Virus record (IMG/VR): IMGVR_UViG_3300043466_000226
Location: 1-21,886 of that record
Source of the DNA: a virus
DNA: 21,886 nucleotides
Direction: 5' to 3' (one strand)
This document shows, in pieces, positions 10,970 through 15,289 of this stretch; the first letter of the stretch is position 1; each line of letters starts with the position of its first letter. The translations under genes and the position numbers were made by a program. The notes beneath the pieces were generated by a model. The model saw only the letters and a program-made list of their open reading frames with translations, was not told the origin of the DNA and did no database searches.

Positions 10970-11126
10970 TCTTTATGCTTTGCTCTCTGTCAAGTTCTGC
11001 CTTCGCTTTAATGTATGACAAATCATTTAAGAAGTTTATTGTTGATAGTTCAAAGGATTGCTCAAGTGTAATCTTTTCATGCTCTGCAACCAACTTGCAT
11101 TGGTAAATCCATCCATACTGTCGCAT
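10953..11126 (-). CDS. Small overlapping tail-module protein, 57 aa (or -1 frameshift extension)
   Basis: The sequence from ATG 11126 reads MRQYGWIYQCKLVAEHEKIT, then TLEQSFELSTINFLNDLSYIKAKAEL and a basic end. I associate the GWIY...VAEHE...FLNDLxYxKxK pattern with a short conserved phage protein next to tail chaperones. It overlaps the end of the 225-aa gene by 91 nt in the -1 frame. The same frame is open further upstream, through a T9 run at 11233-11241, to a TAA just before it. A -1 slip there would fuse 160 residues of the upstream protein to this one, giving 253 residues. Both models fit. The independent ATG is preferred because the sequence I recognise begins near it; the stretch upstream is charged and of low familiarity. 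Confidence 0.6.
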   Translation of the reverse strand: MRQYGWIYQCKLVAEHEKITLEQSFELSTINFLNDLSYIKAKAELDREQSIKNGKKH

Positions 11127-11713
11127 AAAACTTGAAGTATCATCTCTGTGTGCCCCTCTGTCATCCTCATCTTCTTCATGTCCTTTTTCAAATAATCCTG
11201 AGAAACTTTTATCCAAGTTCTGAATACAAGATAAAAAAAAACCACGCTACCCATTACATCAGTGATAGAGGCAGCAAGTAGGTCATCTGCATACTCATCG
11301 TGTTTATTTGCTTGGTACTTGTCATCCTTCCACCCAAATATGGTTAACTTTTGAGGTATAACCATAGAGGCAGCAATCTTGTGGATGTTACCTGCAAAGT
11401 CACCTGAGAAGTATTTACTCTCAATATACCTCCCTGCTTCCATGTTTTTAATGTTGTAATTACAACGATACCTTTTGCCTTTTACCTTTATGTAATCAAC
11501 CTTGTTTACTGGTACATCCGTTTTTAAAAACTCAATCTTTTTGGCAAGTTTAATGGTCTGTGTTAAAGGTAGGTTCAAGACCTCGGTTTCTGTCTTGCCT
11601 GTGATTATGGAGATAACCTTTATAGATACTGCTTCTAAGTCCTCAGATTCAGATTGAGTAAATAGTTGCATTAACTGTTGCCATTGGAATACTGTTACGT
11701 TGGACCAATTCAT
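11036..11713 (-). CDS. Tail assembly chaperone-like protein, 225 aa
   Basis: This encodes 225 residues starting MNWSNVTVFQWQQLMQLFTQ. It has a helical N-terminal half and a middle with DYIKVKGKRYRCNYNIKNMEAGRYIESKYFSGDFAGNIHKIAASMVIPQ (~75-123). The C-terminal part is VVFFYLVFRTWIKVSQDYLKKDMKK...LCDSMDGF (~157-212). I know this layout from proteins upstream of tail genes in Bacteroidota phages. A place in front of the gp10-like, baseplate and tape measure genes suits a gpG-like chaperone that binds the tape measure. Codons 158-161 run across nine Ts (11233-11241), and the -1 frame is open from there to 10953. About 500 bases of non-coding DNA lie upstream, so this is the first gene of the virion operon. 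Confidence 0.65.
   Translation of the reverse strand: MNWSNVTVFQWQQLMQLFTQSESEDLEAVSIKVISIITGKTETEVLNLPLTQTIKLAKKIEFLKTDVPVNKVDYIKVKGKRYRCNYNIKNMEAGRYIESKYFSGDFAGNIHKIAASMVIPQKLTIFGWKDDKYQANKHDEYADDLLAASITDVMGSVVFFYLVFRTWIKVSQDYLKKDMKKMRMTEGHTEMILQVLCDSMDGFTNASWLQSMKRLHLSNPLNYQQ
11233..11241 (-). other. T9 slippery run, candidate programmed -1 frameshift site
   Basis: Nine consecutive Ts on the minus strand span codons 158-161 (GTT TTT TTT TAT) of the chaperone-like gene. In the -1 frame the last stop (TAA) lies only about four codons upstream of the run, and that frame is then open for about 95 codons. A -1 slip is the standard way lambda-like phages make the gpG-T fusion. Both frames after the run look protein-like, so this is not simply a sequencing indel. 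Confidence 0.5.
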
Positions 11714-11754
11714 AATGTTAAATAGTTTATTCTTAGTTAAGTGTAATACAATGT

Positions 11755-11937
11755 CTATCCAAGGATACCCTTGATGTCTTGGGATTCTTTATGCACTCCC
11801 AATCATTGCCAAACTATGCACCCCTATCCAAGAAGGGAGAACGGGTTTTTTGGTTATCCTTGTCGGTAGTTATCATTGTAATTACTACCACTTTTATCCC
11901 GTTCTTATAATCTCCAGTCTGTTACCGAAGCAGACTG
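11755..11937 (-). other. Structured non-coding leader upstream of the virion operon
   Basis: No credible gene lies between 11714 and 12027. Four inverted repeats are present: TTGGGA/TCCCAA (11779-11784 with 11797-11802), AGAACGGG/CCCGTTCT (11838-11845 with 11898-11905) enclosing GGTAGT/ACTACC (11865-11870 with 11884-11889), and CAGTCTG/CAGACTG (11915-11921 with 11931-11937). CTATCCAAG occurs twice (11755-11763, 11824-11832). This could be a long 5' leader, a structured RNA or a protein-binding packaging site. I see no TAnnTTTG promoter directly in front of the operon. Confidence 0.45.
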
Positions 11938-12027
11938 TTAAGCATAGATGACACGTTCATTCATTTACTTTTTGTGCTAAAGTTGGGGTGAACCCGTGTT
12001 AAGACCCAATCAAGTCCGAAGGTAAGT

Positions 12028-12064
12028 AAAAAAAAAGAACCCACACTGGTAGAAGCAGGTGGGT
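12028..12064 (-). terminator. Rho-independent terminator ending short RNA 2
   Basis: On the minus strand ACCCAC plus CTG, a 7-nt loop CTTCTAC, then CAG, a bulged T and GTGGGT form a stem of 6 and 3 bp, followed by TTC and nine Ts. It lies well upstream of the virion operon start. Confidence 0.82.
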
Positions 12065-12125
12065 CTAATTTATGCGGGTTGCATGAATCAAACCCGAATT
12101 ATACTTCTACTATCATTCGGATTGA
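12028..12125 (-). ncRNA. Candidate short RNA 2 with terminator-loop pairing
   Basis: A transcript of about 95-100 nt is predicted from the promoter at 12131-12159 to the T-tract at 12028-12036. It contains GTAGAAG (12110-12104), then a hairpin CGGGTT/AACCCG (12096-12091 with 12080-12075, 10-nt loop), then the terminator hairpin. The whole 7-nt terminator loop, CTTCTAC (12055-12049), is the exact complement of the upstream GTAGAAG, so a pseudoknot enclosing the first hairpin is possible. No ORF of note fits inside. The start site is inferred from the promoter, so its position is good only to a few bases. Confidence 0.55.
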
Positions 12126-12130
12126 CTCAG

Positions 12131-12159
12131 CAAAAATACTAAATATTTTATATAACCAA
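12131..12159 (-). promoter_or_regulatory. Bacteroidota-type promoter for short RNA 2
   Basis: The minus strand has TTG (12159-12157), an 18-nt spacer, then TATTTTTG (12138-12131), matching the Bacteroidota TTG-N17-23-TAnnTTTG consensus. It is in non-coding DNA directly upstream of the short hairpin RNA. Confidence 0.68.
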
Positions 12160-12179: not shown

Positions 12180-12202
12180 AAAAAAAGGGAGGCGAACCTC
12201 CC
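12180..12202 (-). terminator. Rho-independent terminator of the 79-aa gene
   Basis: On the minus strand GGGAGG-TTCG-CCTCCC, a perfect 6-bp stem with a stable TTCG tetraloop, is followed by seven Ts. It lies 8 bases past the stop codon. Confidence 0.92.
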
Positions 12203-12209
12203 TGAGTGA

Positions 12210-12449
12210 TTAATATAAACCTAATTCAATTTTCAATAATTCTGTTTTCATTTCAGGACTTTTGTAATTTTTTACTGCTTCATCAAAGTTTGCAAAATCC
12301 TTACCAACAGTTCCAAAAGGATTATTGGTTACTTTTCTAACTGAAACATAATTAAATCTGCCAGTTACAACAGTAACGGCAAATACATTACCTTTTACTA
12401 AAATTTCTCTTGTTGTGTAGGTTGCGTTGTTTTCAGTGAATGTTGTCAT
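12210..12449 (-). CDS. Small independently transcribed protein, 79 aa (moron-like)
   Basis: The ATG at 12449 gives MTTFTENNATYTTREILVKG and then a 79-residue protein ending LLKIELGLY. The frame extends further upstream, but only without an ATG and across the promoter, so 12449 is chosen. It appears as a small beta sheet (YTTREILVKGNVFAVTVVTGRFNYVSVRKV) followed by a helix (FANFDEAVKNYKSPEMKTELLKIEL). No family is recognised with confidence. It has its own promoter (12479-12505) and a strong terminator (12180-12202) and sits between terminase and the tail operon. That is the pattern of a moron gene: an extra cargo gene expressed apart from the phage operons. Function unknown. Confidence 0.7.
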   Translation of the reverse strand: MTTFTENNATYTTREILVKGNVFAVTVVTGRFNYVSVRKVTNNPFGTVGKDFANFDEAVKNYKSPEMKTELLKIELGLY

Positions 12450-12564: not shown

Positions 12565-13722
12565 CTATGCAAAACTATACCTACCACTTCCCACATTCTT
12601 TTGGAGGTGCTGCCAAGCAAGGGAAAGGGAAACAACACAGTCATCATGGAATCCTTGAGGTGCTGAATACTTTACCCCGAATGAGGTGTATTGGTATTCA
12701 AAGATTTCTAATTCATCCACAATAGGACCAGGGGGGAATGTTATCTTCCTTTGGTGGATAGCGGATGCAAGACCCTCCATAAGCATCTGCTTTGAGGTAC
12801 TGCTGAACTTGTAACCTTGCACATCAAGACCCTCCCTTTGCATATCCTCAAAGATTGGGTCACCTACCCCCGTGCTATCCATAAGGATTGGTGCTTTGGG
12901 TAGATTGACAATATACTCTTTAGTCTGCCTCCAATCCCTTTGGAAGCGTTCATAATGGCATACAGACCCGTTCTTGTCAAGTCCTATTACCACGGTCCAG
13001 TCAACCGCTTTGGCAAGGTCTATCCCATAACAAGCAACAGGATTGGTAGACATCGGGAAGATGCACTGGCGAATGTAAGCAGACCCAAAAGGATTGGCAG
13101 CATTCTCAGCAGGGTTTGCCATGTACTCTTGCTCAAAGACCACTTCAGGTAGTTGCATTCTTGCACTATCAACCTCTGATTTATCTATGTACGGGTTATC
13201 ATAGGTGCTAAACTTGAAACTTTGCCAATCTTCCTCCCCTCCGTTCCCTTTCATGAACAATGAGTAAAAGTAGTTTTTGCCCTTTGGAGTAGACAGGAAT
13301 AATGCCTTGCCCTTGTAATCGGTCAAGGTAGGTCTGATACTATTTAACCAACCATCCTCAAGGTTAGGGATGAAGGATGCCTCATCAACCACAACAAGGT
13401 GAAACTTCCTGCCTCGCAGGTTATCTAACCGCTCCCCTGTAAAGAATTGTACCGAACCGCCATTTGGAAACTCAATAGTCAAATCAGACCTATTAGAGGC
13501 GAAAGGAACGGCTTTTGCTAACTTGTCAAAGAAAGTCTTGGCAAGGTTATAAGTCGGGGTAATATAGGCAACAGATTGCCCCACAATGGCATTCTTGATA
13601 ATCTCTACCTGTGAGAGTTCAGACTTGCCGAACCTCCTACCACACATCACTACCCTAAACCTTCCAGGGGAATCAATTATCTCAACTTGGTTTTTATGTG
13701 GTTCGGGTAGTTCAATTATCAT
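12565..13722 (-). CDS. terL: Terminase large subunit, 385 aa
   Basis: This is the ATPase-nuclease motor that packages phage DNA. Walker A is GRRFGKS (28-34), Walker B is LVVVDEAS (109-116), and the coupling motif is STPKG (144-148). The C-terminal RNase H-like nuclease has YGIDLAKAVDW (candidate Asp235), LMDSTGVGD (Asp282) and HDDCVVSLSLAW (Asp360/361). At 385 residues it is compact but has both domains. It overlaps terS by ATGA at its start. An inverted repeat follows the stop. The virion operon does not follow directly: an 850-base island with a cargo gene and short RNA intervenes. Confidence 0.93.
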   Translation of the reverse strand: MIIELPEPHKNQVEIIDSPGRFRVVMCGRRFGKSELSQVEIIKNAIVGQSVAYITPTYNLAKTFFDKLAKAVPFASNRSDLTIEFPNGGSVQFFTGERLDNLRGRKFHLVVVDEASFIPNLEDGWLNSIRPTLTDYKGKALFLSTPKGKNYFYSLFMKGNGGEEDWQSFKFSTYDNPYIDKSEVDSARMQLPEVVFEQEYMANPAENAANPFGSAYIRQCIFPMSTNPVACYGIDLAKAVDWTVVIGLDKNGSVCHYERFQRDWRQTKEYIVNLPKAPILMDSTGVGDPIFEDMQREGLDVQGYKFSSTSKQMLMEGLASAIHQRKITFPPGPIVDELEIFEYQYTSFGVKYSAPQGFHDDCVVSLSLAWQHLQKNVGSGRYSFA

Positions 13723-14101: not shown

Positions 14102-15289
14102 TTAGTCCATTGTTTTAGTATACTTCTGCCCGTTCCTCTTCACCTCCAAAGTCGGGTCAAGTTTAACCATCCTGTCAACTATAACTTGGCAGTATTTAGG
14201 GTCAAGTTCCATCCCGTAGCACTTGCGTTTAAGTTGATGACTTGCCACCATAGTTGAACCGCTACCGAGGAAAAAGTCAATTACTAAACTATTTTCATTT
14301 GAACTTATTTGCATTTCATTTGCAATCAATTCAATTGGTTTCATTGTTGGATGCAATCCAGTTTCTCTTCCAAATTCTAAACACCTTGAATAGTTTACAT
14401 TTTGTAATCCATAATTCCAAATTGATGATTTTCTAAACAATAACAAATACTCAATATCGGGTCTATGTGCTGAATTAATTGGTATTGCATTCGGCTTTTT
14501 CCAAATTAAAACATTGAATGAATAATTTGCATCTTTTGCCCATGTTAAATAATCGGGTAACAATTCATTATTGCAAAAAATATAGGCATTCATTTTTTTT
14601 TCAAATACCAGTGGCAAAACTTGCAAAAATTCAGTTGGATTAAATTCTGCAATAAATTCAATATCTTTCCCTTGCTTTCTTAATGCCTTGCCAATATTTC
14701 CATTTTCTCCTCCTTCTGTTTCTATTTTATAAGGAGGGTCAGTAAATACCATGTCTGCCTTCTGTCCATTCATCAACTTTTCTACTTGGTCGCTATCTGT
14801 TGAATCACCACAGAGTAAACGATGCTCACCTATCTCAAACAAATCCCCAAGAACGATATCGGTTTCAATTCCCCCATCAGGTACATTAAAGTCATCCTCT
14901 TCTGCTTCAAGCACCTCAGGTTTAAAATCGGGTATATCTAACCCCCAATCTGTCAATTGTTCTGCATCCCAATTATTCGCAAGGTCTTCCCAATCCCATT
15001 CGCCGAACCCAACATTATCTTTTATGATAAACTGCTTCTGTTGGTCTTCAGTTAAGTCCTCTGCTTTGATTATTGCTACTTCTTTAAGTCCTGCTTCCTT
15101 ACACGCCCTCAGTCGCATATTCCCACCGAGGACTACCATATCCGCATTGACTACTATTGGGCGAATGTTGAGCATCTCAGGGAACTCCTTAATTGACTTG
15201 ACTAACTTTTGGAACTTGTCATCCTTGATTATTCTTGGATTGTTCGGGTTAGACTTTACCTCGCTGATTTTAACTGTGATTGGATTCAT
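14102..15289 (-). CDS. ParB-like domain fused to DNA adenine/cytosine-N4 methyltransferase, 395 aa
   Basis: The N-terminal domain (1-115) is ParB/Spo0J-like (SNPNNPRIIKDD...RPIVVNADMVVLGGNMRLRACKEAGL). The methyltransferase has the catalytic DPPY motif at 184-187, HPTMKP at 313-318, and the SAM-binding FLGSGST at 340-346 with MELDPKYC after it. Motif IV before motif I is the beta-class order. It should methylate an amino group of A or C in a specific DNA site, protecting phage DNA or marking it. The part between DPPY and FLGSGST (about 14281-14700) is about 28% GC, against about 40-45% in flanking sequence I counted. This suggests exchange of the target-recognition region. The start overlaps the upstream stop as TAATG. 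Confidence 0.88.
   Translation of the reverse strand: MNPITVKISEVKSNPNNPRIIKDDKFQKLVKSIKEFPEMLNIRPIVVNADMVVLGGNMRLRACKEAGLKEVAIIKAEDLTEDQQKQFIIKDNVGFGEWDWEDLANNWDAEQLTDWGLDIPDFKPEVLEAEEDDFNVPDGGIETDIVLGDLFEIGEHRLLCGDSTDSDQVEKLMNGQKADMVFTDPPYKIETEGGENGNIGKALRKQGKDIEFIAEFNPTEFLQVLPLVFEKKMNAYIFCNNELLPDYLTWAKDANYSFNVLIWKKPNAIPINSAHRPDIEYLLLFRKSSIWNYGLQNVNYSRCLEFGRETGLHPTMKPIELIANEMQISSNENSLVIDFFLGSGSTMVASHQLKRKCYGMELDPKYCQVIVDRMVKLDPTLEVKRNGQKYTKTMD

Follow-up and report, generated by a model that had tools for sequence, protein, structure and literature searches.

The window, as the whole stretch of viral DNA analysed here is called (21,886 nt, IMG/VR record IMGVR_UViG_3300043466_000226), carries on its minus strand the terminase gene (12565-13722) of an abundant group of uncultured phages; genes for relatives of the protein occur on at least 596 contig stretches, and the ten cultured-phage relatives among the matches listed are at most 33.8% identical to it. 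Two proteins of 79 aa (12210-12449) and 225 aa (11036-11713), both encoded on the minus strand, flank the site considered here, and neither has a match in PHROGs or Pfam. Elsewhere on the same strand, the gene at 14102-15289 appears, by its PHROGs matches, to join a ParB-like N-terminal part to a DNA methyltransferase. The RNA that is the subject of this work lies after the terminase gene, and its principal features are as follows.

12186-12203, minus strand: separate terminator just upstream of the promoter, a good U-tract hairpin that ends the transcript of the preceding small gene
12131-12159, minus strand: promoter, with TTG at 12159-12157, an 18-nt spacer and the -7 box TATTTTTG at 12138-12131
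12028-12126, minus strand: short RNA or leader domain, predicted to start at G12126 and to be about 99 nt long when it ends in the U-tract
12094-12120, minus strand: hairpin P1 with its 7-nt loop L1; covariation (UA/AU, AU/GU/GC) in that part of the stem which varies
12104-12110, minus strand: loop L1, GTAGAAG
12072-12084, minus strand: hairpin P2 (ATGC-AACCC-GCAT), within the interval between L1 and L3; 95% of cells are paired, and both partners have changed in 4/4 pairs
12039-12064, minus strand: hairpin P3, the intrinsic terminator stem; 4/10 pairs changed on both sides, 99% of cells paired
12049-12055, minus strand: loop L3, CTTCTAC, the terminator loop and exact reverse complement of L1
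12028-12038, minus strand: T-rich U-tract, present in 43/43 RNAs
12006-12011, minus strand: candidate element e, GATTGG, past the U-tract and complementary to the 5' end of the RNA; weak in the window (6 bp, p 0.12)
11740-12012 (approximate), minus strand: downstream noncoding stretch, the "type A" long RNA (a working name); the short RNA is directly upstream in 16/16 contigs

The +1 position was assigned to the conserved G because the flavobacterial sigma-A box TAnnTTTG sits at -12 to -5 (PMC9723704). The sequence TAnnTT(T/C)G ends exactly 4 nt 5' of the first conserved G in all 43 distinct upstream stretches, and across phage lineages sequence conservation starts at the predicted +1. A promoter with an intrinsic terminator after it in the same leader, an arrangement expected of an attenuator, is found throughout the collection (-7 box and U-tract in 43/43), and the U-tract contains 8-9 T per 10 nt in every one of the 43 RNAs, the 10 nt including, at their start, the two final bases of the scored stem. 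In many cassettes a terminator also precedes the promoter, as it does in the window, where another good U-tract hairpin occurs at 4191-4172 on the minus strand.

The scan of the single window, which covered both strands, sought U-tract hairpins with a loop complementary over at least 6 nt to the 110 nt upstream, and the present site was the sole match in the two strands. Since ten second-order Markov copies of one strand produced 2 matches in total, a loop match in a single sequence is barely beyond chance and can be taken as suggestive only. Relatives of the RNA were gathered through neighbouring proteins and a two-box DNA pattern whose boxes do not overlap the loops, so that the collection is not selected for loop sequence. 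The resulting 43 distinct RNAs contain 20 L1/L3 types, and every pair is exactly complementary over 6-8 nt (7 nt in 33 RNAs, 8 nt in 5 and 6 nt in 5). When L1 was compared as a control with the L3 of another type, complementarity of at least 6 nt occurred in 18% of 1710 pairs, so that the loop codes are related but not interchangeable.

Structure counts are based on an alignment of 42 rows (A1). In this alignment L1:L3 is 100% paired, 7/7 column pairs have changed on both sides with no one-sided change, and 286/286 loop-loop cells are Watson-Crick, without a single G-U pair; the cells of P3 include 30 G-U and 4 unpaired out of 402. Over all structure cells 97.3% are paired, compared to 83.3% in shuffles, and the covariation score of the whole structure is 0.361, a value that is reached by 0/500 shuffles and that falls to 0.084 or less when the structure is slid along the alignment. 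Covariation is also present in P2 and in the tops of P1 and P3. The comparison of relatives is decisive and makes the match of the loops certain; it establishes the anatomy of the RNA and the position of its promoter and, by covariation, L1:L3, P1, P2 and P3.

The 99-nt RNA folds at -30.3 kcal/mol, compared to -16.8 +/- 2.9 kcal/mol for shuffles (z -4.6; 0/200 shuffles as good). The opposite strand of the short RNA folds nearly as well (z -4.0), and the strand therefore cannot be chosen by fold energy; its choice is based on the promoter and the U-tract. The covariance model R2 matches the short RNA of the window, which is a member of the model, at 106 bits (E 3.5e-23).

Much of what the earlier note on this DNA had described is borne out by these results: its coordinates are all correct, the promoter, the strong terminator and the enclosed hairpin are present, and the start that it placed near 12125 is predicted at G12126. 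The pairing that it proposed between the terminator loop and the upstream GTAGAAG is kept by compensatory change in 43/43 RNAs of 20 types, and the covariation to be looked for at 12104-12110 and 12049-12055 appears as 7/7 column pairs doubly changed, with no one-sided drift. Its suggestion that the phage contains a class of two unlike RNAs was not confirmed, since R2 finds the one site and scores 15 bits on the opposite strand, and the comparison with an "RNA 1" found no counterpart, the loop scan of the window showing no other site.

The covarying elements do not by themselves specify a single fold, because four strands of the RNA take part in alternative folds, each having two possible partners.

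12118-12123, minus strand: strand a, AAUCCG, nearly invariant; partner of b in P1, or of d in the rod
12088-12095, minus strand: strand b, GGGUUUGA; partner of a, or of c in the rod
12061-12068, minus strand: strand c, UUAGACCC; supplies the 5' side of the terminator stem, or pairs with b
12038-12043, minus strand: strand d, UGGGUU; supplies the 3' side of the terminator stem, or pairs with a

RNAalifold applied to the 42 sequences of A1 gives not two hairpins but a rod, composed of a:d, L1:L3 and b:c (with c = UURRACCC) and enclosing P2. The rod and the terminator hairpin are mutually exclusive. In nearest-neighbour energies at 37 C, which include no kissing terms, the best energy with the terminator enforced minus the best energy with b:c enforced has a mean of -0.5 kcal/mol over the 42 RNAs (sd 2.4, range -5.4 to +3.2). 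For a transcript cut after L3 the fold with b:c and L1:L3 is the minimum in 42/42, while for the full RNA the minimum is the terminator fold in 25/42 and the rod in 17/42; the preference of the full RNA for the terminator may merely reflect an efficient terminator.

The 12 core columns that have two rival partners show a mean identity of 0.998 in A1; the corresponding identity is 0.77 for the 42 columns with a single partner and 0.72 for L1 and L3 together. Near-invariant cores are expected of a switch, because each change must be matched in two partners, but protein binding could also be a cause of such invariance. Double-sided changes were sought in the cores and found in 0/8 pairs of b:c and 0/6 pairs of a:d, which are too invariant to covary; one b:c pair is broken (C-A) in 4 rows of A1, and G-U pairs account for 69/336 cells of b:c and 85/252 cells of a:d. 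A pseudoknot between the P2 loop (AACCC) and GGGUU was considered as well and is possible, but it is indistinguishable from b:c, because one invariant strand serves both. From the energies and the complementarity together we infer the rod, the switch between the two folds and the read-through that such a switch would permit.

Between the U-tract and the next ORF lie 300-480 nt of noncoding sequence, of which several sequence types with the working names A to E can be distinguished. Pattern scans for the long RNA found type A in 16 contigs, type B in 29, types D/E in 6 and type C in 2, and the short RNA is directly 5' of the long RNA in 52/53 of these contigs, the 53rd (L185) being cut by the contig end. 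At each of 15 loci viewed downstream of the short RNA the sequence continues as noncoding, in L114 just to the contig end. The independence from a fixed downstream partner that would mark a stand-alone small RNA is thus not observed. No promoter was seen between the short and the long RNA in lineages other than the window's own; some window-type phages have a TAnnTTTG-like stretch past the U-tract, for example TATCTTTG in L020, with no recognised -33 partner, and in these a second start past the U-tract is conceivable.

Single long RNAs fold just mildly better than shuffles (z -1.85 for type A, z -1.56 for another), and any statement about their structure is consequently based on comparison. 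Rfam gave no support for a group I intron, RNase P or tmRNA in the long RNA. The type B long RNA contains a short motif twice, internally and at its 3' end, in copies that are near-identical within a phage and different between phages (GGAGTAG, GGTATAG, GGAATAG, GTAATAG, GGACTGT, GGTGCAG); the type B alignment, A2, includes L108, L116, L135, L140, L184, L003 and L007, and similar direct repeats are apparent by eye in types D/E and in the type A of the window. In some cassettes an HNH endonuclease gene (PF01844, just at the curated cut-off) lies directly 3' of the long RNA (L169:1979-2401, on the same contig as L142, and L091:3517-3957). Sequences that look tRNA-like by eye occur downstream of the short RNA in the cassettes of L084 and L027; an ARAGORN search for tRNA and tmRNA called none, these two stretches included.

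The stretch past the U-tract offers a further partner for the 5' end of the RNA. In most other lineages the first 8 nt of the RNA are complementary to it over 7-8 bp. Among the 48 stretches compared, complementarity of 7-8 bp is found in 17, and p is at most 0.05 in the same 17; p exceeds 0.05 in 31/48, the window and its close kin are mostly weak, and L106 has no a:e complementarity. Matching changes of a and e occur in L184 and L200 (GUCCAUCC). When the read-through RNA was folded for 13 of 16 loci, the rod with L1:L3 and b:c, closed by a:e, was the minimum in 7 (L108, L116, L140, L183, L194, L142 and L121), and the terminator hairpin was kept in the minimum fold of the other 6.

The cassette as a whole is facultative and is found in unrelated phages. 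In L006, L023 and L025 the terminase stop and the gene that follows are about 40 bp apart, compared to about 850 in the window, and the RNA is absent. R2 found nothing above 25.2 bits in 36 records that encode relatives of the terminase or of the 225-aa protein, records that had been picked since blastn had shown no RNA in them; weak R2 matches of 20-25 bits at 8 places in whole virus records, five of which were inspected by eye, were dropped as noise. In other phages the RNA lies near genes for an ERF recombinase, a dNMP kinase or a DnaA-like protein, and among the relatives of one such region some carry the RNA and others carry other genes. On a terminase tree of 22 phages, which was obtained by a short search and has 10/19 inner branches open, at least 14 changes of loop code and at least 10 of long-RNA type are needed, the types having been assigned by eye and from sequence clusters. 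By these counts the cassettes are exchanged as well as mutated.

Searches of bacterial genomes were empty: of 15 bacterial genome contigs that match the two-box pattern, 0/15 carry the rest of the RNA when inspected by eye, and R2, run with stricter filters and without a positive control, found nothing in 349 genomes from the family of one Flavobacterium MAG and nothing in 395 genomes of a sample of the Bacteroidota phylum. The assignment of a host is for this reason derived from the promoter type alone, by which the carriers are probably uncultured phages infecting Bacteroidota; the view that the RNA is specific to phages, already taken by the earlier note, is supported. Rfam 15 gave no match at the gathering score in the window or in 13 loci, and below-threshold matches to Thr_leader, the trpB motif, His_leader, Hrs10 and NsiR1, the best of which (trpB motif) scored 33.9 bits against a threshold of 59, were taken as chance or as a generic leader shape. 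Three queries against 50,697 cultured-phage records produced no match to the RNA, and a search of the literature, which is no proof of absence, found no description of it. The RNA is apparently an undescribed phage RNA family.

The interpretation that we favour, with a probability of roughly 0.5, is that the short RNA is a terminator/antiterminator attenuator, that is, a bistable leader, with which a noncoding-RNA cassette of the phage begins. Transcription would start at G12126, and the first ~90 nt would be able to fold in two ways of near-equal energy: a state T with hairpin P1 and the terminator hairpin P3, and a state R in which b and the 5' half of the terminator form b:c and L1 pairs with L3 in a rod. 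The rod would be closed by a:d, which engages the other half of the terminator, or by a:e once the polymerase has passed the U-tract. On emerging from the polymerase L3 would be gripped by L1, which would stabilize the rod before the second half of the terminator exists, and the outcome would be either a ~99-nt terminated RNA or a transcript that continues into the long RNA and on to the gene after it. The attenuator is held at an even chance because a kissing-loop small RNA and a structural or oligomerising domain fit much of the same data. Taken alone, a plain attenuator gives no reason for the absence of G-U pairs from L1:L3 or for its frequent changes; in addition, the same linkage to the long RNA would be expected if the element were a 5' domain instead of a switch.

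A rival explanation is that the ~99-nt product is a free-standing phage small RNA that acts in trans on other RNAs or on a protein, made compact by 7 bp of kissing between the loops of P1 and of the terminator, with the long RNA as a second, independent product. Each of the 43 RNAs has its own promoter and strong terminator, L1 and L3 are the apical loops of two covarying hairpins, as in a kissing pair, the linker of about 16 unpaired nt plus P2 seems long enough by a rough hand estimate, and the absence of G-U from 286 loop cells, though P3 tolerates it in 30/402, suits a loop-loop contact. Such an RNA should nevertheless not require the near-obligate long RNA partner downstream, for which no promoter of its own is seen, and L1:L3 forms equally in a nested fold without kissing, so that we regard this explanation as possible but rather unlikely. 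The earlier note had proposed much the same, a short RNA regulator with a contact at the terminator loop; the promoter, the terminator and the pairing that it described stand, but a free-standing, complete RNA is not supported, given the long RNA directly 3' in 52/53 contigs, and contact with the terminator loop is not the sole reading of the pairing, which the nested rod also fits.

The RNA could also be the structural 5' domain of a larger phage RNA, or it could assemble with itself through intermolecular L1-L3 contacts into dimers or rings, on the principle of the phi29 packaging RNA or of the quaternary kissing loops of ROOL and GOLLD; homo-oligomerisation needs loops that change yet stay self-complementary, and ROOL and GOLLD are phage RNAs with covarying intermolecular kissing loops (PMC12286853). 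The sequence cannot separate pairing within a molecule from pairing between molecules, and the U-tract in 43/43 points instead to termination, which leaves this alternative improbable. A role of such an assembly in packaging is suggested by the position of the RNA after the terminase gene in the window, but the RNA is missing in close relatives that share the terminase (L006, L023 and L025), and other phages carry it among genes of DNA metabolism; a packaging role is therefore unneeded. It is very improbable that the element is purely an insulator, in which promoter and terminator isolate the transcription of an inserted cassette and the loop pairing just speeds the folding of the terminator: a terminator before the promoter is indeed also common in the cassettes, but a simple terminator needs no invariant 5' sequence, no P2 and no exact pairing in 20 versions.

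An extension of the attenuator, which we consider a speculative and unlikely addition to it, is self-recognition by RNA only, in which L1 or L3 of the terminated RNA, then an abundant product, would bind the matching loop of another nascent copy, block its L1:L3 pairing and force termination. If this were true, a cassette would repress itself the more strongly the higher its dose, and superinfecting phages would be silenced when they share its loop code but not when they carry another. Self-recognition would explain the exact pairing in 20 versions, the at least 14 changes of code among 22 phages, and the facultative, exchanged cassettes.

The renewal of a 7-bp pairing in 20 versions without a G-U pair or a mismatch is strikingly clean covariation, and the RNA offers a natural experiment on the evolution of terminator and antiterminator folds. 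The swappable loop codes make self-specific regulation by a phage RNA directly testable. The data also indicate that uncultured phages, probably infecting Bacteroidota, carry a noncoding cassette that is facultative and comes in several types.

Attenuators and the expression platforms of riboswitches, such as the leaders of amino-acid operons, place mutually exclusive terminator and antiterminator folds before a downstream transcript. The phage RNA resembles them as a leader right at its promoter, with exclusive folds of similar energy and a transcript downstream, and its far-below-threshold Rfam matches include such leaders (Thr_leader, trpB motif, His_leader); it differs from them in having no recognised ligand-binding core or leader peptide, in the hypervariability of its clamp helix L1:L3, and in being followed by a long noncoding RNA rather than a gene. 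The packaging RNA of phage phi29 has two mutually complementary loops that stay so while changing, as L1 and L3 do, but the RNA described here is untied from a packaging gene, given the terminase kin L006, L023 and L025 without it. In the immunity system of satellite phage P4, the CI RNA, a short RNA processed from the prophage leader, base-pairs with leader sequences complementary to it, and transcription then ends early in a self-specific manner. A short phage RNA that could act through a self-specific code is common to both systems, action in trans being a candidate for the loop RNA. We know of no loop code in the put element of phage HK022.

The putRNA of HK022 is an element of phage nascent RNA near a promoter that affects termination (PMC9378689); its direct target is RNA polymerase, at terminators further on, whereas the loop RNA carries its own terminator. 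IsrK of the Salmonella prophage Gifsy-1 has a short terminated and a read-through isoform from one promoter, and the short isoform acts in trans on the long one (PMC4825925); it affects how an mRNA is translated, with an antiterminator protein as the result. The architecture of the phage RNA would be compatible with short and read-through isoforms of this kind, but there is no known coding target for it, and no sequence relation is expected. ROOL and GOLLD are phage noncoding RNAs of several hundred nt and of unknown function, often located by tRNA genes, with kissing loops that covary (PMC12286853). Unlike these, the RNA described here is conserved over its ~100-nt 5' part alone and has a 3' part of several types; it shares with them the covarying loops and, in L084 and L027, a sequence by the short RNA that is tRNA-like by eye.
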